A stretch of 24,271 bases of DNA from a virus: the IMG/VR virus record IMGVR_UViG_3300008262_001635, positions 1 through 24,271 of that record; one strand, given 5' to 3'. This document shows positions 186-24,147 of the stretch, in pieces. A program made the translations under genes and the position numbers. Positions within the stretch are counted from its first letter, which is position 1; the number at the start of each line of letters is the position of its first letter. The notes under the pieces were generated by a model. It ran no database searches, had not been told where the DNA came from, and saw only the letters and a list, made by a program, of their open reading frames with translations.

Positions 186-2321
186 TTATTTATATTGATT
201 TAATGGATTTAATTGTCTTATCAAATCATAGTAAGAACCTGATGGAGGAGTAGGTTTTTTACCTTGAACCATTCTATTAAATTCCGTTAAAGCTGAATTT
301 GGGATTCCCATCTGTCTTGCTTTATTAGCGCTGGTTTCGAATCTTTCAATATCTTTTCCGTCTACAGCTTCTTTTCTTTTCCACCCTCGAAGCCATTGCT
401 CGGCTGAAGTGGTTTTTCCTTGAGCATACGCTCTCATATTAGTTCCTTCAGAGTAATTCATGTCTAATAAAAATAATGCTCTCTGTCTATCTAAAGATAA
501 GTTTCTAGCATCATTATTTGGAATATTTATCCAACTTGGGACTTTATTTCCTGTCTGCTCCGCATATTGTCTGACTCTTTGCTGCAATCTTGGAACAGTA
601 GATGCCTCAATTTGAAATGCTCCTTTTGCAATTCCACTTCCTCTTTGTACCATTTTAGGATCCATTGTATGCCCACTTTCATGATACCCAGATGTATCAC
701 TTAGAGCTAAATACTGTTGGGGAGTTCCTCCATGCATTCTAGCCATATGTTTTGCTACTTCAAACGCACTAAATGGATCTACATTTTTACTGCCCCCTCC
801 TTGGTATTTACTAACACTCCCAGATCTTAGTAATCCTCCATATTTTTTAAACCCTTGCTTTTGGAAAAAATATTTAGATGTAGCACCCTCACCGCTCCAG
901 TCAGCTTGCCATATAGGAGTTGTTGTTGGGGAAAATTCTCTTTCATCAGCTACTTGCGTTATTTTAGGAACAAGTCTCTCATATGTATCTTCAGTTCCCG
1001 TAAATACTCTTATTGAATTATTGTCATTAATGCCTCTTCTAGTATCTATTGGTTGGTTGAATGTTCTAAGTAAATTTTGATAAACTCGTTCATAGCTATC
1101 TCCAAATTGTGGATTTCCAATAAGGGAGTTTACAATTCCTTCGAATTGTTCCTGAGAATACAAACTATTTATACCTGGAGCATAAGGTCCTGACCCTTCT
1201 TGTATAAGCCCCTGAATTTGTCCCATTAGATATTTACCAGACATATTAGGAGTTATATCTATAGGCATAAGTTCTCCAATAACATTCCCATAATACCGTG
1301 CCCTGTCAAGATCTGAAGTACTATATATACCTGGTCCATAAGCCCTATCGCCTGATCCAAATGGGGATGTTAAAAATTTTGCAGCTTCGTCTAGATTGTT
1401 TGCGCGTACTCCTCTAAATGATGTTAAATATTGTCTCCCAAAATCTTGAACTGCCGAAGCAACTTCCGGGGAGTTCATCATTCCAGTATTATATGTAGCT
1501 GCAAGTTGTGGGTAATCTGCTAAAACAGTGTTTATAAGTCTACCAGTGTTATTTTGTCCACTTCCTCTCATTTGAGTATCGGGATAAATATCTCTATAAA
1601 GCTGTCTAGCATTATTGCCAGCTATACTAATTGTACCAGCAGCGTTAGCTAATTCCTCTGACATCCCCCCTGTATTATTATATGCTGCGCTACTCACAAG
1701 GTTAGCAGCTTCTTCAGCTGAGGTGATATCATGTCTTTTAAATGTATTTGCAGCTTCAAACAAATCTTGGGCCGAATTAGGAACTCTTATTGTTCCTGGT
1801 AATAGTACTGATGCAGCAGCTAATCCTGCTCCTAATCCTCCCTCAAGATAATTACCCTTTGCTATTTGTGCTCCAGATTCTATAATTCCCTGCAAATCTC
1901 CAGCAGGAGTTACGTATGTAGCTGGGGATACGCTCTCTGCTCTCCCGCTGGTCATAGCTGCACGTTTGTTGGGGTCTCTCCATTCATTAGTTTTGTTAAA
2001 CATTAATGTTTGGAAAGCCTGCTCTTCGGCCTGCCTTTGTGCCCTTGGATCTATAACTCTCTGTGCTGGTCTATCTCTTACCAACGGATCAGGACGTACA
2101 TCCATTGGTTGGAGGGTAGTTATTTCCGCATTAGGATTTCTTCTAGGACCTGCAGTTTGATATCTCCTCACACCTCCTGTCTGCATATTAGCAGGAGTTT
2201 CTACAACTGTTCCTTCCTGTGGACCTGTAGGAAGATTCTGTATCCCAGGAGGTACACTCTTGAATGATTCTATCAAATGCCCATTGTTATCATACTTATC
2301 AATATTTATTGGGGCTTTCAT
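186..2321 (-). CDS. Large virion-associated protein with ADP-ribosyltransferase-like region and C-terminal lysozyme-like domain, 711 aa
   Basis: The protein has three visible parts. The N-terminal ~130 residues are Pro/Arg/Gln-rich and of low complexity. Residues about 295-465 resemble an ADP-ribosyltransferase fold: FRGVR at 302-306, YGPGIYSTS at 328-336 followed by RARYYG, and a possible ExE turn (DEREF, 459-463). Residues about 515-680 resemble a lysozyme/lytic transglycosylase, with YHESG (E548 as candidate catalytic acid) and GAFQIE at 567-572. YQ-x-x-G motifs (RYQTAG near 53, KYQGGG near 505) flank the middle region. Its place downstream of portal genes suggests an internal or tail-tip virion protein carrying a cell-wall-cutting activity for DNA entry. 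The start overlaps the previous stop (ATGA). The lysozyme-like call is fairly good, the transferase call tentative. Confidence 0.72.
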   Translation of the reverse strand: MKAPINIDKYDNNGHLIESFKSVPPGIQNLPTGPQEGTVVETPANMQTGGVRRYQTAGPRRNPNAEITTLQPMDVRPDPLVRDRPAQRVIDPRAQRQAEEQAFQTLMFNKTNEWRDPNKRAAMTSGRAESVSPATYVTPAGDLQGIIESGAQIAKGNYLEGGLGAGLAAASVLLPGTIRVPNSAQDLFEAANTFKRHDITSAEEAANLVSSAAYNNTGGMSEELANAAGTISIAGNNARQLYRDIYPDTQMRGSGQNNTGRLINTVLADYPQLAATYNTGMMNSPEVASAVQDFGRQYLTSFRGVRANNLDEAAKFLTSPFGSGDRAYGPGIYSTSDLDRARYYGNVIGELMPIDITPNMSGKYLMGQIQGLIQEGSGPYAPGINSLYSQEQFEGIVNSLIGNPQFGDSYERVYQNLLRTFNQPIDTRRGINDNNSIRVFTGTEDTYERLVPKITQVADEREFSPTTTPIWQADWSGEGATSKYFFQKQGFKKYGGLLRSGSVSKYQGGGSKNVDPFSAFEVAKHMARMHGGTPQQYLALSDTSGYHESGHTMDPKMVQRGSGIAKGAFQIEASTVPRLQQRVRQYAEQTGNKVPSWINIPNNDARNLSLDRQRALFLLDMNYSEGTNMRAYAQGKTTSAEQWLRGWKRKEAVDGKDIERFETSANKARQMGIPNSALTEFNRMVQGKKPTPPSGSYYDLIRQLNPLNQYK

Positions 2322-2719: not shown

Positions 2720-3678
2720 TTCTGCTTAGCTTGTGGGGCTGATTGAGCTTGTTCTTTTAACCCAAGTTCTTGTTGCTTGAGGTCTAACTCTTTCTGACGA
2801 ATCTCAAAGTCAGATACCATCTTCTGCAGATCAATATCAAGTCTGTTTGTTTGATCAGATGCTTCTGCATTGATCAATGCAATCTCAATATCTTTCTGTC
2901 TATTTCTCTCGCTGTCCTGATACTTCATCTGAGACTCTTGCTGCTTAGATGCAAGTTCTTTCTGCTTCATCTCCATCTCAGCTTGCTGTTGTGCTTGCTG
3001 CAATTCTTGCTGAGCACGTTCTGCTCTTGCAATCTTATCCTTAATAGTTGCAAAGCTCTCAGTATCTAATAACTCTAGAACTGCAGATGCTGGAACTCCG
3101 TTCTGCATCATAGCCTGTGCAATAGAACGTGCCTGCTGTAAGTTCTCTTGATCCTTTCCTGAGTCAGACATAAATATCCCGTACTCAGTTTCCATATGCC
3201 CAAGAGAATCAAGATCTAAGTATTGAATAGAGGTATCTGGGAGTATGTATGTTCCCTTCTTCCCACTTACCCAAGCTTCTTTCGAATAATCCAACAATCC
3301 TTGAAGTTCTCTCTGTTCGAATTGAGCAAACTTCCTAAAGATATCTTCAGTGATATGTGAGGATTGTACAATAGCCTGCTGTGAAGCACCCTTTCCTTCA
3401 TACGTTCCAATACTCCCTTGTCTTTGTCTATTAACCCCAGATATCTTTTCCCACTCTAACATAATAGAGTCAAGTAACTGAATATACTGAGCTATTGTCT
3501 TTACAGACATATCAAGTACCGACTGGTGTGTTGGGGACAGCTGAATACCTTCTTGATTGTAGTCCACCCATGCAATACCTGTTCCTTCTAAGTAGTACAT
3601 GAACTTATCCATATCCCACTTCTTAGGGATAAGATTGATATCAAACTGAGCAATACATCTTAATATAAAATCTCCCAT
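2716..3678 (-). pseudogene. Portal protein, C-terminal part (out of frame with the rest)
   Basis: The recognisable portal sequence starts near residue 9 (IAQFDINLIPKKWDMDKFMY), continues as GTGIAWVDYNQEG, and runs into a long C-terminal helical tail (about residues 215-320) very rich in Gln, Lys and Glu, typical of portal proteins of crAss-like and related Bacteroidota podoviruses. The first eight residues (MGDFILRC) are read from DNA that encodes GRFYIKMY in the frame of the upstream fragment, so the ATG at 3678 is probably not a true start. The sequence usually found between the two pieces is absent. Portal subunits form the 12-mer at the capsid vertex through which DNA is packaged. The gene is either broken or misassembled. 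Confidence 0.7.
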
Positions 3679-3961: not shown

Positions 3962-4631
3962 TATCTAATGGGTTGAGTACCTCGTAGAAAGGTTCTTTCC
4001 TGCGGACACCTTTATGAGAATAGCATTCCCCAGAAACTAAGAAGTGAAAGAATTGCTTTTGAAACTTATCGTAGATCTCTTCTTTCTGCATAATGTAATT
4101 GATAGCAGCCTGTCCTTTGATGGCTCTATCATCTACATACGTTCTTTCGAATTGCTCAACAATCTGCTTAGGAAGCTCAGGCTGTTGCTGTTGCTGCTGA
4201 GGATTGTTTGGATCCATCTGCTGCTGAAGCTTGGCAATAAACGTAGCTTGTATGTTGGTTAAGAGTGATTGCTTTTTAGCCTCCTCTTTCATCGTAATAG
4301 CATCCGCATTCTCTACAACAACTGTGTAGTTCATAGGACGCTTTGACTTCTCCCCAAGTAATAAGTCTATAATTGGTTTGATGATTGGATAGTTACGTAA
4401 TTTAGATGGGAAGTTCTCTCTTGTTTTCCCATAAGGCTTCAATACGTACTTATAATCCTGCTCATCAATCTCCCCATTGTAGTAATCATACAGCGTCTTA
4501 AGCGTATTTCTGCGTTCAGACAGCCCAAATTTAGATATGTTAATGAATGCATTAACACAATCTTTTCTCCACTGCTCAGACTTCTGGCTTAGTGGGACTC
4601 TTTGTTTAGGTATTTTAGCGTATCCGTACAT
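3909..4631 (-). pseudogene. Portal protein, N-terminal part
   Basis: This 240-residue frame opens the portal gene. It begins MYGYAKIPKQRVPLSQKSEQ and has an adaptor-like helical region, a glutamine run (QQQQQQ near 146-151), and SGECYSHKGVRRKEPFYEVLNP near residues 203-224. The reading frame then ends five residues after DKDPDIDFV (LIVQI, stop), where homologues I recall continue with several dozen residues. It lies 18 bases after the terminase stop, the standard terminase-portal order. The fragment itself looks unmutated up to the join, so the lesion is recent or artefactual. Confidence 0.75.
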
Positions 4632-7967: not shown

Positions 7968-9224
7968 TTAGTGGTTATTTAAATACTCTAGTAATTCGTG
8001 TATGTCTTCTGGCTTTCTCATGTGTTGTATTGGGGTCATAACAAAACCACAATCACACGTTTGTCCATATACAGACAGTAAATATAGTAAATCTGATGAA
8101 TTTACTATATAATTTAAGTCTAAATCCCCAACAGTGCATCCTTCACAGTTGTAATTAGACAGAATAACCAGAAGATCAGAGGTTCCCACATGACAATCAT
8201 TGTCTATGTCCCCAAAACAAAAAACATCATCTGAGAATAACTCTGATCTCTGGTACTCAAGCATGGCATGCATACGTTCAATCTGTCCTGGAGTGAATTT
8301 ATCTCTACATAACTCGTGAGAATAATCCATATGATTATCTGCGGCAAATGGGACGTTGTTGTAGTTAGATGCTGGGCAGTAATAACCTGGAATACCTGGA
8401 CAACCTTGGCTAACTTTAGTTGGGGGTGTATCACATACGTAGTCCCCTGTGAATTCACAATCTCCTAAGTTCTGTCCGCAGTTTGACACTATCCCATTCC
8501 CATTTCTAAACACATGATGCAGACCACAGTAGTGCCCCATCTCGTGGGTCAGCGTTTCGTTCTCATATCTGAATGTTAAATGCGGACCACTTAACCCAAA
8601 CACTTCTGTTTCTACCCACACCCCATCAAGGTCTGACCAAGGTTGGTACAGAACCCATGCAAAACCAAGAATTGACGAGCAGAAATCAGGAGCAACATAG
8701 ATATTGCAGTATTCTGCAGTATTCCATCTAACCATATCAGTCCACTGCGCCATCTGTGTTCCATATTGTGGGAAACAGACACCGCTACCAGCTCTGTATG
8801 AATCTGCCCAAGCAAATGTTCCAAGATGAGTGTATGTTGTAGTAACTAAATTGAATGAAATATTAGTTGAATCAAAATCTACGTTTAACTGTTCAAATGC
8901 TTCTTCGATAATCTCTAACCCAATATTGCTATGTGGGAAATGTTGATTGTCATGCAGAACATGTACAACACAGTTAATTACTTTCTCATTGTATGTCCTA
9001 TTGTACTGAGAAGAATATCCTAATGGGAGTATATCTTCTTCATTACCCATAACTATACATTCGTTGTATAGAATGTCTTCATTTTCTGTTAGACTATTTG
9101 TTTGAGCTACAGATAGTGTTGCACATGTAGCTAATAAAATAGATACACAGAATAAACTAGCTATAATAGCTATTACTCTGTGTACAATTCTAGAGAAGAC
9201 GGGGTTTTGGGTAATTTGGGACAT
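7968..9224 (-). CDS. Secreted M43-type metzincin metalloprotease with dockerin-like repeats, 418 aa
   Basis: The N terminus has a hydrophobic export segment (about 14-40, ending LSVAQT). The catalytic signature HEMGHYCGLHH at 227-237 is the full metzincin zinc site HExxHxxGxxH, and NHMDYS (M299) is a plausible Met-turn. Together with multiple cysteines this suggests the M43 (cytophagalysin/pappalysin) family of secreted proteases. Residues 338-351 and 366-379 are two GDxDxxxxVxxxDLL repeats resembling calcium-binding dockerin-like or EF-hand loops, common at the ends of secreted Bacteroidota proteins. It follows the holin gene by 5 bases, so it is expressed with lysis genes. It may degrade host envelope or extracellular protein at lysis. 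It is probably acquired from a host; a host-morphon origin is inference. Confidence 0.85.
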   Translation of the reverse strand: MSQITQNPVFSRIVHRVIAIIASLFCVSILLATCATLSVAQTNSLTENEDILYNECIVMGNEEDILPLGYSSQYNRTYNEKVINCVVHVLHDNQHFPHSNIGLEIIEEAFEQLNVDFDSTNISFNLVTTTYTHLGTFAWADSYRAGSGVCFPQYGTQMAQWTDMVRWNTAEYCNIYVAPDFCSSILGFAWVLYQPWSDLDGVWVETEVFGLSGPHLTFRYENETLTHEMGHYCGLHHVFRNGNGIVSNCGQNLGDCEFTGDYVCDTPPTKVSQGCPGIPGYYCPASNYNNVPFAADNHMDYSHELCRDKFTPGQIERMHAMLEYQRSELFSDDVFCFGDIDNDCHVGTSDLLVILSNYNCEGCTVGDLDLNYIVNSSDLLYLLSVYGQTCDCGFVMTPIQHMRKPEDIHELLEYLNNH

Positions 9225-10804: not shown

Positions 10805-13645
10805 TTAATATACTTTGTTATAATCATTTACAGCATCCAAAATTGTAGATTTACTATATCCATCATTTCCCCAAATTAATAATTCTTGTATAGTACCTGT
10901 TATTGTGCTTGTAGCGGTTGAAGTTGGGTTTGGATAGGCCGTAGAACTTATAACTTTTCCCCCAATAGATATACTTCTTACTATTGGAACAATTGTTACT
11001 GGAGAGTTTGCATTTACTATGACATCACTTCCATTATAACATGATGCATAAGCTCCCACATTTGATGTTACACTCAGTGTTGCAACAGTTAAATCTTGTA
11101 CTGCAGATCTAGTTGTTATTGTTATGTCTGTTCCTGCATTTGCGGCACTCCTAGAGTTATAATATTTATTTGTAGCATTTATTCCAAATCTTATAGTATC
11201 TCCAAATGTATCGTTATTTGCAACAGACGCTAGAAAGGTTGATGCCCCAAATAAAGCTATAGAAGCTGCTTGAGTTGCTATTGTAGATACCATTGCAAAT
11301 GTTATAGTTCCAACTATATCAGTATCAAATTGTGCTACCATGTGACTTCCAGAAAATTCCATTGCTGGATTTGAATTCTGAGTAACAAACCCTACACTAG
11401 ACTTGAATATTAAGGGTTGAAATGCAACATTTGTTTGTACTAAATCTTGTGCAGATGTAGAAGGAGCTTGGTTATAAATTTTAGTAACATAGCAATTAGT
11501 TCCTCTACAAAAGTCAATAAAAGTTTGAGATCCGCTTGATGTTTCTACTAAAGATTCATAAGACAATTTACCTTCAAAATCCCATCTAACGTCTGCTTCA
11601 ATATTATCACTTCCTCTTCTAATTCTTATTAATTTAGAAGAAGTCGTGTTTGCTAATTGTCTTAGTCCGTATGCGCCTTTTAAAGTATTTGAGAATGTAC
11701 TTCCAACTGCTGGGAGAAATACATTGCTTTGTGCCGGAGTTTTGTAGTATCTATATATTTCTTCTTCTATGTCTAGTTTATATGCTTCTGATGGTCTTTT
11801 TATGTAAGAAAACTCCTGTATATACCCATTTAAGTTATTTCCTAAAGTTATTTTTGCAGTTTGCGCAGTAGTTAAATCATTAAAATTTGTACCTGCTGTT
11901 ATGGTTGTTTTTGCATCTGAAAGTCCATTAGCTGTAGTATAAAATCTATTTCCTCTCTTTGATGCACTAATTATATATTGCGTATTAGCATTTATAACAT
12001 TAGAAGACGTATCTGATGTTTCAGTTGCATTGCTGTAAATACTGGATTTTAGTTTTCCATCAGCTGTAGTTCTCCTGATCTCTAATATAACCTTATTTGC
12101 GTCGGTGGTATTTATTATTTTAACAAACTCTTCGTCTGCTCCAGTTGCATTTACTGCTCCCACCATTGTGGTTAGAAATCCTTTACTAACTCCAGTTCCT
12201 CCTATATTAAAATCTCCTCCCAGAAGTTCTAAACTAATATTAGCTTCTAAAAAATCATCTCCATTAAATAAAAGAGCTGGTTTTCCATTTAACTTTTCAA
12301 TTCCATTTGTTGTATCATATATTCTGGGTTGATAAGCATTTGTATTTTGTTTTAAATGTCCCACTTGTATGTTTGCAGATGATACATCTATAGGACTGCC
12401 TGAGACGACAAGTGCTGTATCGTTATAAGTAGACTGCTCGTACCAGGTTCTTACAAATCCAAATGAGTGAGTAGCTCCTGCATTAGAGTATTTTGGGTGC
12501 CCTAAAAATTCTCCAAGTGTTTGATACGGAGTTAATTTAGGGAAAGTTGCTGTTCCTGAAGTAACTATTACTCTAGAGTTTAATGAAAGTTCCCCACTAG
12601 TATCTGGGTATACGTTAGCTGTAGCATTATCAGAACTTCTCCTTACTTCTACGAGTGGGAATATTCCTAGTGCTGCTAATTGCACACTTGTAAATGTATT
12701 CTGCACTGGAGCAGGGTGTACTTTATGGCTGGATATTGCTCTTAAACTATATCCAAGCGTAGGAGGATCATATGAGTCTGAAATTGTATCTAATTTAGAC
12801 TTTTTTCTAGATACACAGTTATAAATAGTATCTAAGTCTGCTTCTATCTCATGTTTATCCTTTAGAGCAAAATACCTGTAGTATATTAATTCATATATAT
12901 TCCCAGCAAATGCTGTTGTAGAGTCTCCCTCTTCTGTTTTTCCTACAGATATTTTTGTTGTAGTCGTATTTATTCCAGATGAAGTGTTTGACGATCCTTT
13001 TTCCCCACTATTGCTTAAGATATTTAAATAAGAACTAGCAGTATAAACTTCTCTTCCTGCAAATAAAACTATTTCTTTATTTGCTACGTATCCTCCTGGA
13101 ATAGCACTATTAAACCCTGTTGCTCCTGTGTAAGTTATACTAGAGTCTGCGTTTCTACTAAATGTTGCTTCTGGGATTTTTATTATCTCTCTTGTTCCAG
13201 CAACGTGGGCTCCTGCATAAGATATAACTGAAAATACAGAAAACTGAGAAGATGTAGTACCTGCTGAAAACTCTGAGTTTGTTCCTGATAAGTAACTGTT
13301 ATTAAATTTTACTGCAGGTTTTCCCTCTAGTCCTACTACAATTACCCCATTTTCACATATTATTGGGTAACTTCCTGCAGATGAAACATCTAAGTGATTT
13401 CCATTTCCAGATTGGTCATACCATACTTTTACATAACATGTATTATTTTCAGTAGCTAAGATTAAAATATCATCTGTATTTATGAATCCATCATTTGTGA
13501 ATGTAACTAGAAGTGTATTTGCATTAGTTTCAACTGCTTCTGGATCAATAGATACTTTTAGTGCCGGACCTGTATATTTTGAATTTAATTTCCTTAAAGA
13601 AAATGCTGCGGCTGCAAATGGGAATTTGTCTAATAAATAACTCAT
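10805..13645 (-). CDS. Tail adhesin with three concanavalin-like beta-sandwich modules, 946 aa
   Basis: The protein consists of three diverged copies of a module of about 300 residues (roughly 1-285, 295-635, 645-946). Each has 'SLRKL/GLRQL' near its start, a 'WYDQSG'-like turn (VWYDQSG 74-80, RTWYEQS 399-405, TKIYNQA 721-727) and an 'F-x-G' strand (KPAVKF, KPALLF, NPAMEF). Copies two and three also have RRSSDN/RRGSDN, which copy one lacks. This pattern is typical of concanavalin/AbfB-catalytic-like beta-sandwich modules in Bacteroidota phage tail proteins. Such modules probably bind or trim surface glycans. Ser/Thr/Asn-rich composition and lack of a signal peptide fit a virion protein. Expected in the tail fibre or spike; substrate unknown. 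Confidence 0.7.
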   Translation of the reverse strand: MSYLLDKFPFAAAAFSLRKLNSKYTGPALKVSIDPEAVETNANTLLVTFTNDGFINTDDILILATENNTCYVKVWYDQSGNGNHLDVSSAGSYPIICENGVIVVGLEGKPAVKFNNSYLSGTNSEFSAGTTSSQFSVFSVISYAGAHVAGTREIIKIPEATFSRNADSSITYTGATGFNSAIPGGYVANKEIVLFAGREVYTASSYLNILSNSGEKGSSNTSSGINTTTTKISVGKTEEGDSTTAFAGNIYELIYYRYFALKDKHEIEADLDTIYNCVSRKKSKLDTISDSYDPPTLGYSLRAISSHKVHPAPVQNTFTSVQLAALGIFPLVEVRRSSDNATANVYPDTSGELSLNSRVIVTSGTATFPKLTPYQTLGEFLGHPKYSNAGATHSFGFVRTWYEQSTYNDTALVVSGSPIDVSSANIQVGHLKQNTNAYQPRIYDTTNGIEKLNGKPALLFNGDDFLEANISLELLGGDFNIGGTGVSKGFLTTMVGAVNATGADEEFVKIINTTDANKVILEIRRTTADGKLKSSIYSNATETSDTSSNVINANTQYIISASKRGNRFYTTANGLSDAKTTITAGTNFNDLTTAQTAKITLGNNLNGYIQEFSYIKRPSEAYKLDIEEEIYRYYKTPAQSNVFLPAVGSTFSNTLKGAYGLRQLANTTSSKLIRIRRGSDNIEADVRWDFEGKLSYESLVETSSGSQTFIDFCRGTNCYVTKIYNQAPSTSAQDLVQTNVAFQPLIFKSSVGFVTQNSNPAMEFSGSHMVAQFDTDIVGTITFAMVSTIATQAASIALFGASTFLASVANNDTFGDTIRFGINATNKYYNSRSAANAGTDITITTRSAVQDLTVATLSVTSNVGAYASCYNGSDVIVNANSPVTIVPIVRSISIGGKVISSTAYPNPTSTATSTITGTIQELLIWGNDGYSKSTILDAVNDYNKVY

Positions 13646-20032: not shown

Positions 20033-20635
20033 ATGTCTAACAACATCAACACCGGGAACATCGAGTTCCTCAACCCAAACGAAGTTATCCTCACTCAAGC
20101 AATCAAAGTTGCAGGAGGAAAAATTCAGCTCGAATTTGCAGAAATCATCTCTGACAATTCAAACCTCAATCCTCTGAGCCTGTTCAACAAATCAGATGAT
20201 CGGTTTAGTGGAGGTCGTGCTCGTCGTGCATGGTTGACTGCAGAGCCAACAGATGCATCTCAAATTCTTGGGGTAAGTCTCGATGATTCTCAGCCCTGGA
20301 AGCTTGGAGACAACAACAAAATGGTTCTCCCGTTGAACATCCTCAACCCTGTAGCAAACATTGGAGGGGTAGAATACAAACTCCGTGTGGAGATTGTTGA
20401 AACCACAACCCCAACCCAATGGCAAATGGAAAACATGGAGCGTGCTGCAAAGCGTCGTGGAGCCAACGGAGATTTCATCACACACCAAGGTAAGTACATC
20501 TTCGTCAACTCACGTATTGCCTTCAATCAAGCAAAACACGTGTTCTTGACAGCAGATGAGCGTACGGTTGATGCAAATCACCTTGTTAATCAAACTTTGT
20601 CAGTTGATTTCTCTTCAGGGGAAATCCTCAGCTAA
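20033..20635 (+). CDS. Unknown, probably abundant cytoplasmic protein, 200 aa
   Basis: The protein begins MSNNINTGNIEFLNPNEVIL and has a mixed beta-rich sequence with a basic patch FSGGRARRAW (58-67) and a second at MERAAKRRG (134-142). It has no signal peptide or membrane segment. Codons ending in C (AAC, ATC, CTC, TTC) are clearly preferred over the A/T-ending codons of the nearby polymerase gene, a hint of high expression. Position before DNA polymerase, basic patches and likely abundance would fit a single-stranded DNA-binding protein, but no OB-fold signature is identified. The transcript appears to continue through the tRNA-like RNA. Confidence 0.65.
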   Translation: MSNNINTGNIEFLNPNEVILTQAIKVAGGKIQLEFAEIISDNSNLNPLSLFNKSDDRFSGGRARRAWLTAEPTDASQILGVSLDDSQPWKLGDNNKMVLPLNILNPVANIGGVEYKLRVEIVETTTPTQWQMENMERAAKRRGANGDFITHQGKYIFVNSRIAFNQAKHVFLTADERTVDANHLVNQTLSVDFSSGEILS

Positions 20636-20647
20636 TAAAGTATCAGA

Positions 20648-20696
20648 AGCAGTTACTCATAGGGAGTTTAAGGGGGTTCGATTCCCCCAACTGCTC
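20648..20696 (+). ncRNA. tRNA-like element with no anticodon arm (49 nt)
   Basis: A perfect 7-pair acceptor stem (AGCAGTT at 20648-20654 with AACTGCT at 20689-20695) is joined directly to a canonical T arm: 5-pair GGGGG/CCCCC stem (20672-20676/20684-20688) and standard loop TTCGATT (20677-20683). Instead of D, anticodon and variable regions there are 17 bases: a 4-pair hairpin ACTC/GAGT (20655-20658/20664-20667) with loop ATAGG, whose GG could stand for the D-loop GG that meets the T loop, and a TTAA linker. C20696 is the discriminator; no CCA is encoded. It lies 12 bases after the stop of the 200-aa gene. It may be a processing signal, decoy or degenerate tRNA. Confidence 0.75.
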
Positions 20697-20800
20697 AAAA
20701 TAGAGTGTTCCCTGACAGGTTCAATCACCTCTATTAGGGGAATAGATTCAACGGAGTCATTCCCCTTTACAAAATCTATCTTGGCGGGTAGATATCTTAA
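20697..20800 (+). ncRNA. Hairpin series downstream of the tRNA-like element
   Basis: Three successive hairpins can form: ATAGAG/CTCTAT (20700-20705/20729-20734); AGGGGAAT/ATTCCCCT (20736-20743/20759-20766, extended inward by GATT/AGTC); and ATCTATC/GGTAGAT (20774-20780/20787-20793). They link the tRNA-like element to the terminator at 20801. No credible gene occupies the stretch, so tRNA-like element, hairpins and terminator probably form one structured 3' RNA of about 205 nt. Confidence 0.5.
20714..20725 (+). repeat. Repeat GACAGGTTCA, first copy
   Basis: The first copy (20714-20723, extended to 20725 as pairing partner) is repeated at 20802-20811. Each copy can pair with the 3' arm of the terminator (20834-20845): the first forms 12 pairs with one G-T, the second 12 with two G-T. 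The two foldings exclude each other, suggesting an alternative long-range structure. Confidence 0.5.
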
Positions 20801-20853
20801 AGACAGGTTCAGTAAACACATTAATTTGTGTGCATTGAGCCTGTCTTTTTTTT
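20801..20853 (+). terminator. Strong intrinsic terminator
   Basis: AGACAGGTTCA (20801-20811) pairs with TGAGCCTGTCT (20836-20846), 11 pairs with one G-T. An inner ACACA/TGTGT stem (20816-20820/20827-20831) caps it, and eight T run from 20846 to 20853. It should end the early transcript before the polymerase operon. Confidence 0.9.
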
Positions 20854-20901: not shown

Positions 20902-21150
20902 ATGAGCCACATGAAGTATCTCTATCAAATCGCACAAGAACCACAGCGTATTTGGGAGTTAAAAACAGCACTTAAAAAAGCTGAATCAAACAATCTAAAC
21001 TATGCTATAGTCGATAGTGAGGTTGTAAGTTTGGATCAGCTAAAAGCTATGATTCACGTCGTAGAAAAACATGTCGCAGACGTAAAAGAACTCAAAAGAA
21101 AACAGGAACAACAACAAAAACAAATCAATGATCAAGTTCATAACGAATGA
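20902..21150 (+). CDS. Coiled-coil protein upstream of DNA polymerase, 82 aa
   Basis: The first ATG is used; a second four codons on (MKYLYQ) is equally possible. The protein is helical, with a C-terminal coiled coil rich in Lys, Glu and Gln (VADVKELKRKQEQQQKQIND, about 58-77). No domain is recognised. The end overlaps the polymerase start by 23 bases, so it is translationally linked and may be a replication accessory factor. Its leader contains CCCTTAAAA twice (near 20870-20891). Confidence 0.65.
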   Translation: MSHMKYLYQIAQEPQRIWELKTALKKAESNNLNYAIVDSEVVSLDQLKAMIHVVEKHVADVKELKRKQEQQQKQINDQVHNE

Positions 21151-22987
21151 CACATCAATAGACGAGTATTCAGACGAAATACAGCTATCAACCATTGAAG
21201 AATGTGTTGAATACTGTAAATCTAAACAGGTACTCGGAGTTGATACTGAGACTGAAGGATTCAACTTCCTCACAAAGAAACTAATCATGTTTCAGATTGG
21301 GGATGAAGAACAGCAGTTTGTAATAGATACAAGGACAACAAGTATCGAACAACTACGACCTGTTCTTGAATCAGAATCTATAATCAAAATCCTTCACAAT
21401 GCTAAGTTTGACTACAAATTCATCAAAAAGTGGGGAAACATAGATCTAAACAACATCTATGACACATTCTTAGCTGAAAAGATCTTGCATTGTGGGAAAG
21501 AGAACTATGGATTTGGACTTAGTAGGCTCACAGAAAGGTATTTAAGCGTCAAACTAAACAAAGAAGAGCGTAATCAATTTGTTCAGTTAGAAGGACGCCC
21601 ATTTAACTACAATCAAATACGATATGGAGCATATGATGTCAAGTATCTAGTTCAAATCTATAATGAACAACAACCAGAGATAGATAAACTAGACCTTAAT
21701 CATGTTGTTAAGCTCGAAAACAAAGTAGTTAAGATCTTAAGTGAGATTGAATACGAAGGTATTGGGTTAGATATTGAGAAATGGAAACTAATTTGGGAAA
21801 CAAACCACGATAAAACATTCAAGAAACAAAAAGAATTAGACATCGAATTACTCAAAGATCAAAAATTTGAGAAATACAGATCTGTTCAGTTTGATATGTT
21901 TACCCCAGAGAGTGAACTAAGAACAACATCTATCAATTGGGATTCCCCAACTCAAGTTCTTTCTGTATTCTCCCAACTAATCCCAACATTAGAGGATGTG
22001 AATGGGAAGAACTTGTACAAACACAAGTACAAATTCCCTCTCATTAAAGAGTATATCGAGTACAAAGAACTATCAAAGCTTACTAATGCTTATGGGGTTA
22101 AGTTCTTAAAGTACATTCACATAGATCAGAAGATACATACAAACTTTACTCAAGTATTAGACACAGGACGAATGAGTTCTAGTGACCCTAATATGCAGCA
22201 AATCCCTGCAGATAACATATACAGAAACTGCTTTATAGCCCCTAAGGACTATGTCTTTGTATCAGGGGATTATAAATCACAGGAGCTAAATGTTATTGCA
22301 TTTGGGAGTAAAGACCCAGTATGGTTGGATGCTCTTGAAACAGGGCAAGATCTTCATGGAGTATGTGCTGACTTAGTATTCGAAGATGAGTGGAGAAATG
22401 CAGATGCAGATAAGAAGAAGAAACTAAGAACGATGATAAAGTCAATCAATTTTGGATTGGCTTATGGGATGGGCCCTAACAAACTTGCAGATACGTTAAG
22501 TATTGATATACAAGAGGCTAAAGACTTGATTAACAAGTACTTTAAAGAGTTCCCAAACATCAAGAACTTCTTAGATTCTCTTGGGGATTTTGGGAAAAGA
22601 AATGGGTATATACGTACCTATGCCCCATTCAAGCGTATTAGATGGTTTGATACTTGGACTCCTAAGATGTACAATGATCAATCTAAGTTTGCTGAATTAG
22701 GGAGTATAGAACGAGCATCAAAGAATACCCCTATTCAGGGCTCATCTGCAGATATAACAAAGCTTGCTCTTATTTATATCTACAGAGCTATCAAGTCTAC
22801 CCCTAAATTCAAGGATGTAAAGATTGTAATGACTGTTCATGACCAGATTGATACAATAGCCCATAAAGATATCTCTGAAGAGTGGGGTAAAGTATTAACT
22901 GAGCTTATGGAAAAGGCTGGGAATATTGTGATTACAAACAATCTCCTCAAAGTTGATACAACAATATCAACTGTTTGGGAAAAATAA
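21128..22987 (+). CDS. polA-like: Family A DNA polymerase with proofreading domain, 619 aa
   Basis: This is the phage replicative polymerase. The N-terminal 3'-5' exonuclease is intact: VDTE (D39, E41), HNAKFD (N91-D95) and YGAYD (Y166-D170). There is no 5'-3' exonuclease domain. The polymerase domain shows QVLDTGRMSSSDPNMQQIP (about 342-360), motif A SGDYKSQELN (catalytic D381), motif B RTMIKSINFGLAYG (R434, K438, F442, Y446) and motif C VHDQ (catalytic D572). Motif A differs from the usual DYSQIELR, and motif C has Q573 where E is common; both catalytic aspartates are kept. Length is typical for phage enzymes of this kind. A separate operon probably starts near the 82-aa gene. Confidence 0.95.
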   Translation: MIKFITNDTSIDEYSDEIQLSTIEECVEYCKSKQVLGVDTETEGFNFLTKKLIMFQIGDEEQQFVIDTRTTSIEQLRPVLESESIIKILHNAKFDYKFIKKWGNIDLNNIYDTFLAEKILHCGKENYGFGLSRLTERYLSVKLNKEERNQFVQLEGRPFNYNQIRYGAYDVKYLVQIYNEQQPEIDKLDLNHVVKLENKVVKILSEIEYEGIGLDIEKWKLIWETNHDKTFKKQKELDIELLKDQKFEKYRSVQFDMFTPESELRTTSINWDSPTQVLSVFSQLIPTLEDVNGKNLYKHKYKFPLIKEYIEYKELSKLTNAYGVKFLKYIHIDQKIHTNFTQVLDTGRMSSSDPNMQQIPADNIYRNCFIAPKDYVFVSGDYKSQELNVIAFGSKDPVWLDALETGQDLHGVCADLVFEDEWRNADADKKKKLRTMIKSINFGLAYGMGPNKLADTLSIDIQEAKDLINKYFKEFPNIKNFLDSLGDFGKRNGYIRTYAPFKRIRWFDTWTPKMYNDQSKFAELGSIERASKNTPIQGSSADITKLALIYIYRAIKSTPKFKDVKIVMTVHDQIDTIAHKDISEEWGKVLTELMEKAGNIVITNNLLKVDTTISTVWEK

Positions 22988-24073: not shown

Positions 24074-24147
24074 GCTCCCTTAGCTCAGTCGGTTAGAGCA
24101 GCGGACTCATAATCCGCGGGTCGTTGGTTCAAGCCCAACAGGGAGCA
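24074..24147 (+). tRNA. tRNA with anticodon CAT, probably Ile2 (lysidine) or elongator Met
   Basis: Complete cloverleaf of 74 nt: acceptor GCTCCCT/AGGGAGC, D stem GCTC/GAGC, anticodon stem GCGGA/TCCGC with loop CTCATAA (anticodon CAT), variable GGGTC, T stem GTTGG/CCAAC with loop TTCAAGC, discriminator A. CCA is not encoded. The first acceptor pair is G-C, so it is not a bacterial initiator. The CTTAGCTCAGT D region and GGTCG-TGGTTCAAG part resemble bacterial tRNA-Ile2, which reads AUA after lysidine modification; AUA is frequent in this AT-rich genome. Elongator Met cannot be excluded. Confidence 0.95.

Follow-up and report, generated by a model that had tools for sequence, protein, structure and literature searches.

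Positions 20648-20696 of the window, as we call the whole 24,271-nt stretch of viral DNA analyzed here (IMG/VR record IMGVR_UViG_3300008262_001635), read AGCAGUU-ACUC-AUAGG-GAGU-UUAA-GGGGG-UUCGAUU-CCCCC-AACUGCU-C. They raise the question of whether an RNA with the acceptor stem and T arm of a tRNA, and with no anticodon arm, is a broken gene or a working signal. Dozens of similar non-decoding tRNA mimics adjoin replication genes in relatives; the element is thus probably no broken tRNA but a signal by which viral messages are cut or their ends marked.

A 49-nt tRNA-like structure and its setting

crAss-like phages, which also occur in water, rank with the most abundant viruses in the human gut. 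Judged by its protein matches, the window is from an aquatic crAss-like phage: its terminase is matched best by crAss-like phage proteins, at up to 40% identity, and the top matches of its DNA polymerase include crAss-like ones. The terminase relatives point to Bacteroidota phages; Dojkabacteria were set aside as host, the single 32% match in one MAG contig being judged uninformative. Structural genes on the minus strand include those for a peptidase M43-like protein (7968-9224) and a virion protein with an arabinofuranosidase B-like match (10805-13645). The tRNA-like structure (TLS) starts 12 nt past the stop codon of a gene for a 200-aa protein (Table 1). AlphaFold modeled this protein with a pLDDT of 77, and searches returned no PHROG, Pfam or PDB fold match (PDB at E ≤ 0.001), so that we do not call it a single-stranded DNA-binding protein.

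A sequence-only reading of the locus had described an acceptor stem of seven pairs, a D-like hairpin of four pairs with GG and a T arm of canonical form, the anticodon arm being absent. RNAfold returned exactly this fold (-18.8 kcal/mol; z = -2.65), with a short linker between the D-like hairpin and the T arm, and kept it when the whole intergenic region was folded (235 nt), which is strongly structured overall (z = -6.59) and includes a long U-tract hairpin. The acceptor stem and T arm are those of a canonical elongator tRNA, and the 5-bp anticodon stem with its 7-nt loop is absent; with no anticodon arm the element is unable to decode, as that reading had claimed. As expected of a processing TLS, the top half carries the elbow motifs (T loop and D-loop GG), whose tertiary contact is predicted, and it lies at the border of other genes on the same strand. 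CCA is not encoded, CAAAA following the element. An alternative register, with a 6-bp acceptor (20649-20654 with 20689-20694), U20695 as discriminator, C20696 as C74 and A20648:U20695 as an extra pair, fits the encoded-C pattern described below equally well, and the mature 5′ end could therefore be 20648 or 20649.

Standard annotation passed over this RNA. ARAGORN called the tRNA-Met at 24074 and, in the window, neither the 49-nt element nor a tmRNA; at gathering score Rfam reported the tRNA-Met only, the element scoring below the RF00005 gathering threshold. Permissive Rfam scanning of the element strand matched the T arm alone, to tmRNA (13.9 bits; gathering, 47). With this T-arm match only, no tmRNA called by ARAGORN and no coding part with a tag peptide, tmRNA identity was rejected, and a sub-threshold minus-strand match to Plastid-ycf2, the mirror of a tRNA 3′ half, was ignored. 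We used a descriptor defined by 7/7 acceptor pairs, 5/5 T-stem pairs and a UUCRA loop, which matched two places in the window, the 49-nt element and the real tRNA-Met. Among 300 dinucleotide shuffles of the window, four held descriptor matches of ≤52 nt (0.013 per 24 kb). The exact 23-mer spanning T arm and acceptor had no match in viral_contigs, and blastn of the intergenic region retrieved merely tRNA-like scraps in phages.

Table 1. Coordinates of the features discussed
Feature	Source	Coordinates	Strand	Evidence or remark
200-aa beta-rich protein gene, function not assigned	Window	20033..20635	+	TLS in its 3′ UTR; conserved in ~100 viral contigs
49-nt TLS without anticodon arm	Window	20648..20696	+	Sequence, RNAfold, descriptor vs shuffles
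Acceptor stem, 5′ strand AGCAGUU	Window	20648..20654	+	7/7 pairs with AACUGCU 20689-20695
D-like hairpin ACUC-AUAGG-GAGU, 4 pairs	Window	20655..20667	+	GG 20662-20663 at G18-G19 position
T arm GGGGG-UUCGAUU-CCCCC	Window	20672..20688	+	Sequence, RNAfold, permissive Rfam
Acceptor stem, 3′ strand	Window	20689..20695	+	C20696 discriminator, or U20695 discriminator and C20696 = C74
GC-rich hairpin 3′ of TLS	Window	20736..20766	+	Fold of intergenic region, sequence
Strong intrinsic-terminator-like hairpin with U tract	Window	20799..20853	+	Similar one at same place in L002
82-aa ORF, first in DNA polymerase operon	Window	20902..21150	+	
Family A DNA polymerase	Window	21128..22987	+	PHROG 17, E 1e-109
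Ordinary tRNA-Met(CAU)	Window	24074..24147	+	ARAGORN, Rfam; relatives have TLSs and/or tRNA-Arg/Met in block
Mini-TLS, 43 nt	cr6_1, NC_055894.1	57451-57493		Descriptor
Mini-TLS, 42 nt	cr53_1, NC_055889.1	75415-75456		Descriptor
Mini-TLS, 60 nt	cr115_1, NC_055898.1	60690-60749		Descriptor
Second TLS type	G003	2694-2801, 3014-3106, 3172-3281		
Second TLS type	G002	379-471		
Second TLS type	G006	26522-26627		
Second TLS type	G019	81146-81261		

Non-decoding TLSs in aquatic and gut relatives

Scans with the 200-aa protein gathered about 100 distinct viral contigs, among which "freshwater" and "marine" are our working labels for two tree groups and not sample provenance. Non-decoding TLSs occupy the same intergenic site in 18 relatives (9 freshwater-type and 9 marine-type); they retain acceptor and T arm but have a remodeled middle. 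In the freshwater-type genomes they lie 13-23 nt past the stop codon of the 200-aa gene and combine normal acceptor, D and T arms with an aberrant anticodon arm (e.g., UAACGAG-UUUUAUACUAUU-CUCGUUA); ARAGORN mostly reports them as "tRNA-???" and Rfam scores them at 52-58 bits. Those of the marine-type genomes measure 76-118 nt, several directly behind a terminator-like hairpin. Many members of the 200-aa family have no TLS at this site. L002, which is closest to the window (68% identity in the 200-aa protein; sister in the protein tree, support 100/100), has an intact tRNA-Thr(UGU) some 120 nt past the gene, on the far side of a further hairpin; with a real tRNA at the site in the sister genome, the conserved features are those common to tRNA and TLS.

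The L002 tRNA bears directly on origin, since the sequence-only reading had held that a relative with a full tRNA at this position would show the element to be a deletion or an assembly error. Such a relative exists, but its tRNA has a different sequence and lies at the distance just given, beyond a hairpin of its own. That a normal tRNA recently suffered an internal deletion is not supported as the whole story, given this difference in sequence, that distance and the recurrence of TLSs at many other sites in related phages. The anticodon arm was likely lost at some time in the past, whereas neither an error of assembly nor decay of a single isolated gene is a likely origin.

Other structured RNAs were seen at the site. 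Just downstream of the 200-aa gene in L006, L011, L014, L016 and L132, a near-invariant 44-nt element, CCCCTGTAACTGAGTTCAAAGCAAGGAGCGAAACCTTGCAGGGG, replaces the TLS between diverging flanks; RNAfold favors another fold for it, and it was therefore not counted as a TLS. L048-L056 carry a different, multi-branched junction RNA (in L054, ~50 nt past the gene) of the pattern TATTTGTA..TGCAC [CTTGA..TCAAG][CAAGAT..ATCTTG] GTGCA..TACAAATA. A group I intron (Rfam RF00028) was also found in a relative (L010, 3483-3698).

TLSs are not restricted to the downstream site. Marine-type genomes also have them on the upstream side of the 200-aa gene, among them anticodon-less forms of 57 and 66 nt, and forms of ~41-43 nt with 6-bp acceptors occur in L080/L082, L140 and L153. 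The short anticodon-less TLSs found elsewhere (41-66 nt) are those of L080/L082, L140, L153, L049/L059/L137, L063 and the gut genomes cr6_1, cr53_1, cr115_1 and cr52_1. Upstream of the 200-aa gene, L049, L055, L059, L063 and L137 share a TLS family, TAGTGCGCATTGGCGTGGGGGG...GGTTCGATTCCTTCCGCACTA, with middles very unlike in length. A second TLS type stands beside tRNA-Arg(UCU), sometimes in tandem; its ends (AGTCAGGTGGCG ... ACAGGTTCGAATCCTGTCCTGACTA / CAGGTTCGAATCCTGTCCTGACTA) are nearly identical, whereas its middles differ. Across five near-complete or large aquatic contigs, tRNAs and TLSs found with the 7/7 descriptor are confined to the block of the 200-aa gene, polymerase and tRNA-Arg/Met, all those of the block on the coding strand, with one exception, a tRNA-Met in G019; shuffles gave 0-0.2 descriptor matches per genome. 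Remaining matches inside polymerase or other ORFs (e.g., one of 111 nt) were treated as chance, as was an apparently intergenic 111-nt match in G003, which corresponds to a polymerase-internal match of G002. Flavobacterium phage Fpv3 and Cellulophaga phage phi14:2 were searched and yielded no TLS.

In annotated gut CRASSVIRALES genomes, the descriptor revealed mini-TLSs in cr6_1, cr53_1 and cr115_1, each 14-20 nt before the start of the DNA primase gene. Reading the primase leaders of ten more Suoliviridae genomes (loci L249-L258) brought the count to 13 of 13, the TLS (42 to ~124 nt long) ending ~14-24 nt before the primase ATG. Eight of these were recognized by the descriptor and five by eye (cr114, cr125, cr60, cr10 and cr272), the latter showing a mismatch in the T stem, a T-loop variant or an extended middle. 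The distance from TLS 3′ end to ATG (mean 18, SD 3 in ten genomes) is far steadier than TLS length. In cr52_1, a 59-nt TLS lies 20 nt before the DNA polymerase gene, and the linker AAUGGUUAAU is common to L080 and gut cr53_1.

Selection on acceptor and T-stem pairing

Because the hits were first found by pairing, the test was repeated starting from T arms. In the 270 nt that follow the 200-aa gene, every true TTCRA T arm had a Watson-Crick acceptor partner (6-7/7 pairs), and four chance matches to TTTRA did not stand out. In 16 aligned elements, 98.4% of the acceptor and T-stem cells pair, and 10 of the 12 pairs show two-sided (compensatory) changes. The covariation score was 0.878, compared with no more than 0.198 when the pairings were slid and 0.22 in shuffles; the shuffle control is inflated by kinship of the sequences, and the slide control and the number of pair types agree. 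Selection thus acts on acceptor and T-stem pairing, while acceptor sequences as well as the length and sequence of the middle vary freely. Stems kept by compensation around a freely changing middle are not the behavior of a decaying tRNA, which bears out the earlier claim that the element is not a product of random decay. In a catalogue of 52 TLSs compiled by hand from the outputs of this analysis, 45 have a C directly 3′ of the discriminator, like the tRNAs of these phages; the other seven have that C in the alternative register.

A candidate role in mRNA processing

Three features fit RNA processing: placement at gene borders, interchange with a true tRNA at one of the sites, and a C encoded next to the discriminator. 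Architecture, recurrence, stem selection and placement being as described, we consider it just probable that the TLS family at replication-gene borders serves as RNA-processing signals read by host tRNA-maturation enzymes, with transcription, cleavage and the enzymes as predicted components. What TLSs keep is the acceptor, the T loop and, in most, a GG-containing D-like segment; what they have lost are parts needed for decoding only. The anticodon arm would be free for loss, shortening or replacement because nothing decodes with it. RNase P, RNase Z and the CCA-adding enzyme all use the retained parts, as the sequence-only reading had suggested, and the elbow is what RNase P and RNase Z measure from (PMC11693755). 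In the window, the element would be transcribed together with the upstream 200-aa gene, fold as acceptor plus D/T elbow and be recognized by host tRNA-maturation enzymes. RNase P would cut at 20648/20649, trimming at 20695/20696 would fall to RNase Z or exonucleases, and the 3′ end may be a substrate of the CCA-adding enzyme; mRNAs would be separated or defined by the end so cut or capped. Of the roles suggested earlier, 3′ processing is the one that fits this explanation, its cleavage step being a prediction. More tentatively, at somewhat short of even expectation, we suggest that Crassvirales-type phages use virus-encoded tRNA punctuation, in which non-decoding TLSs (down to 41-49 nt) at the mRNA ends of replication genes (primase, DNA polymerase and the 200-aa gene) would have host RNase P and RNase Z mature messages as in mitochondria.

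The order of elements does not point one way. The TLS precedes the hairpins in the window and the freshwater clade, so that a cut by RNase P would leave the upstream mRNA with no 3′ hairpin, a point against processing, as are the many 200-aa family members that lack a TLS here; the terminator-like hairpin comes before the TLS in the marine clade, and gut TLSs lie in a 5′ leader. As hairpin and TLS order differs by clade, the consequence for flanking mRNAs may differ as well, and one uniform role across clades is not proven.

The strongest rival, although unlikely, is a structure that stays in the UTR uncleaved, as a stable mRNA fold blocking exonucleases or binding a translation-regulating protein, with a tRNA shape and no excision. 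Positions in the 3′ UTR (window and freshwater) or ~14-39 nt before a start codon (gut and marine) would suit it, as would the replacement of the TLS by the 44-nt element and the junction RNA in sister clades. However, a UUCRA T loop, D-loop GG, 6-7-bp acceptor and encoded C are more tRNA-specific than a generic stabilizer needs, and the true tRNAs that adjoin these genes have to be cut out of the transcript. A decoy or anti-defense RNA, occupying host tRNA-targeting nucleases, toxins or translation factors, or immune to anticodon nucleases, we regard as decidedly improbable. The anticodon arm is exactly the altered part, and phage tRNAs have been proposed to evade anticodon nucleases (PMC10264068), which we count in its favor; yet a molecule that does not decode gains nothing from such resistance and is a poor decoy for those nucleases, acceptor sequences vary freely, and strict placement at replication-gene borders is unexpected for a trans-acting RNA.

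That TLSs are relics, old phage tRNA genes decaying after loss of the anticodon arm, is hardly probable. The intact tRNA-Thr near the position in L002, and the resemblance of the element's D-stem letters (CUC/GAG) and UCAAA trailer to it, speak for this reading, but the purifying selection that keeps stems through compensatory changes, the acceptor found with each true T arm and the recurrence of the class at many sites, across Suoliviridae subfamilies, do not fit decay. Random decay is accordingly disfavored, as is the view that TLSs are bacterial Y RNAs (YrlA-like), tRNA mimics bound by a phage Ro60/TROVE protein, to which we give almost no credence. In crAss001 (MH675552.1), two long non-decoding tRNA-like RNAs (96203-96341 and 96453-96596), possibly phage Y RNAs, lie directly downstream of a TROVE-domain (Ro60-like) gene. 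Among 30 phage records, however, TROVE occurs in crAss001 only; the remaining 29, some of them nearly complete genomes related to the window, lack it; G000 and 20 other IMG/VR records had none, the window itself being a fragment. A 49-nt RNA also has no room for a Ro-binding stem, and the Y RNA reading was rejected for the window family on the TROVE search. Finally, a role in replication, with the processed 3′ end as DNA primer or the element as origin mark, is very doubtful: TLSs do flank the primase, DNA polymerase and 200-aa genes, but there are several per genome, always on the coding strand, and nothing points to such a role specifically.

As a kind, then, tRNA-like processing signals are known; the phage-borne, anticodon-less, replication-gene-linked form across crAss-like phages appears to be new, and a search of the open PMC subset found no description of such elements in phages. 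Plant mitochondrial t-elements, cut by RNase P and RNase Z, CCA-tailed and not aminoacylated (PMC11658184), are likewise tRNA-like sequences at gene ends, and their cleavage defines mRNA ends. They are organellar and homologous to tRNA genes, whereas the TLSs are phage-encoded and recurrent, some of 41-49 nt, at replication genes, and cleavage is predicted. The mascRNA of MALAT1 and menRNA of MEN-beta share an acceptor, T arm and small D arm with two elbow Gs, have an altered anticodon-region stem and begin at an RNase P cut that ends the upstream RNA (PMC11693755). These belong to mammalian long noncoding RNAs, and mascRNA keeps an anticodon-region stem where the window element has none. We know of no family-wide placement at gene borders for the phage M3 RNA or the antisense C4 RNA. 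Both are non-tRNA phage RNAs cut by host RNase P (bacterial RNase P substrates listed in PMC11143913) and are set beside the TLSs here by this property, not by sequence comparison.

An RNA element of this kind, conserved but so far unannotated beside replication genes, would reveal by what means crAss-like phages determine where their replication mRNAs end and at what level these are kept. If the processing reading is true, mitochondrial-style tRNA punctuation would extend to bacterial viruses, the TLSs would be natural minimal RNase P and RNase Z substrates, and some "tRNA-???" calls in phage annotation would be explained. Part of the question is testable now, as long-middle TLS relatives are present in crAss001, a cultured phage that infects Bacteroides intestinalis; besides the two near the TROVE-domain gene, it has a non-decoding TLS at 4141-4235. 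Several longer TLSs resemble ordinary phage tRNAs in their Rfam tRNA-model scores, but TLSs have no usable anticodon loop, and the window element falls below all tRNA thresholds. tmRNA and permuted tmRNA (the latter present in gut relatives) also have a tRNA-like domain without an anticodon arm; the window element, in contrast, has no coding part and matches the tmRNA T arm only. The tmRNA genes noted in gut crAss-like phages lie at L211 1183-1625, L212 1245-1625, L213 1299-1534 and L214 1253-1614, and two of the four match Rfam permuted tmRNA (RF04321).
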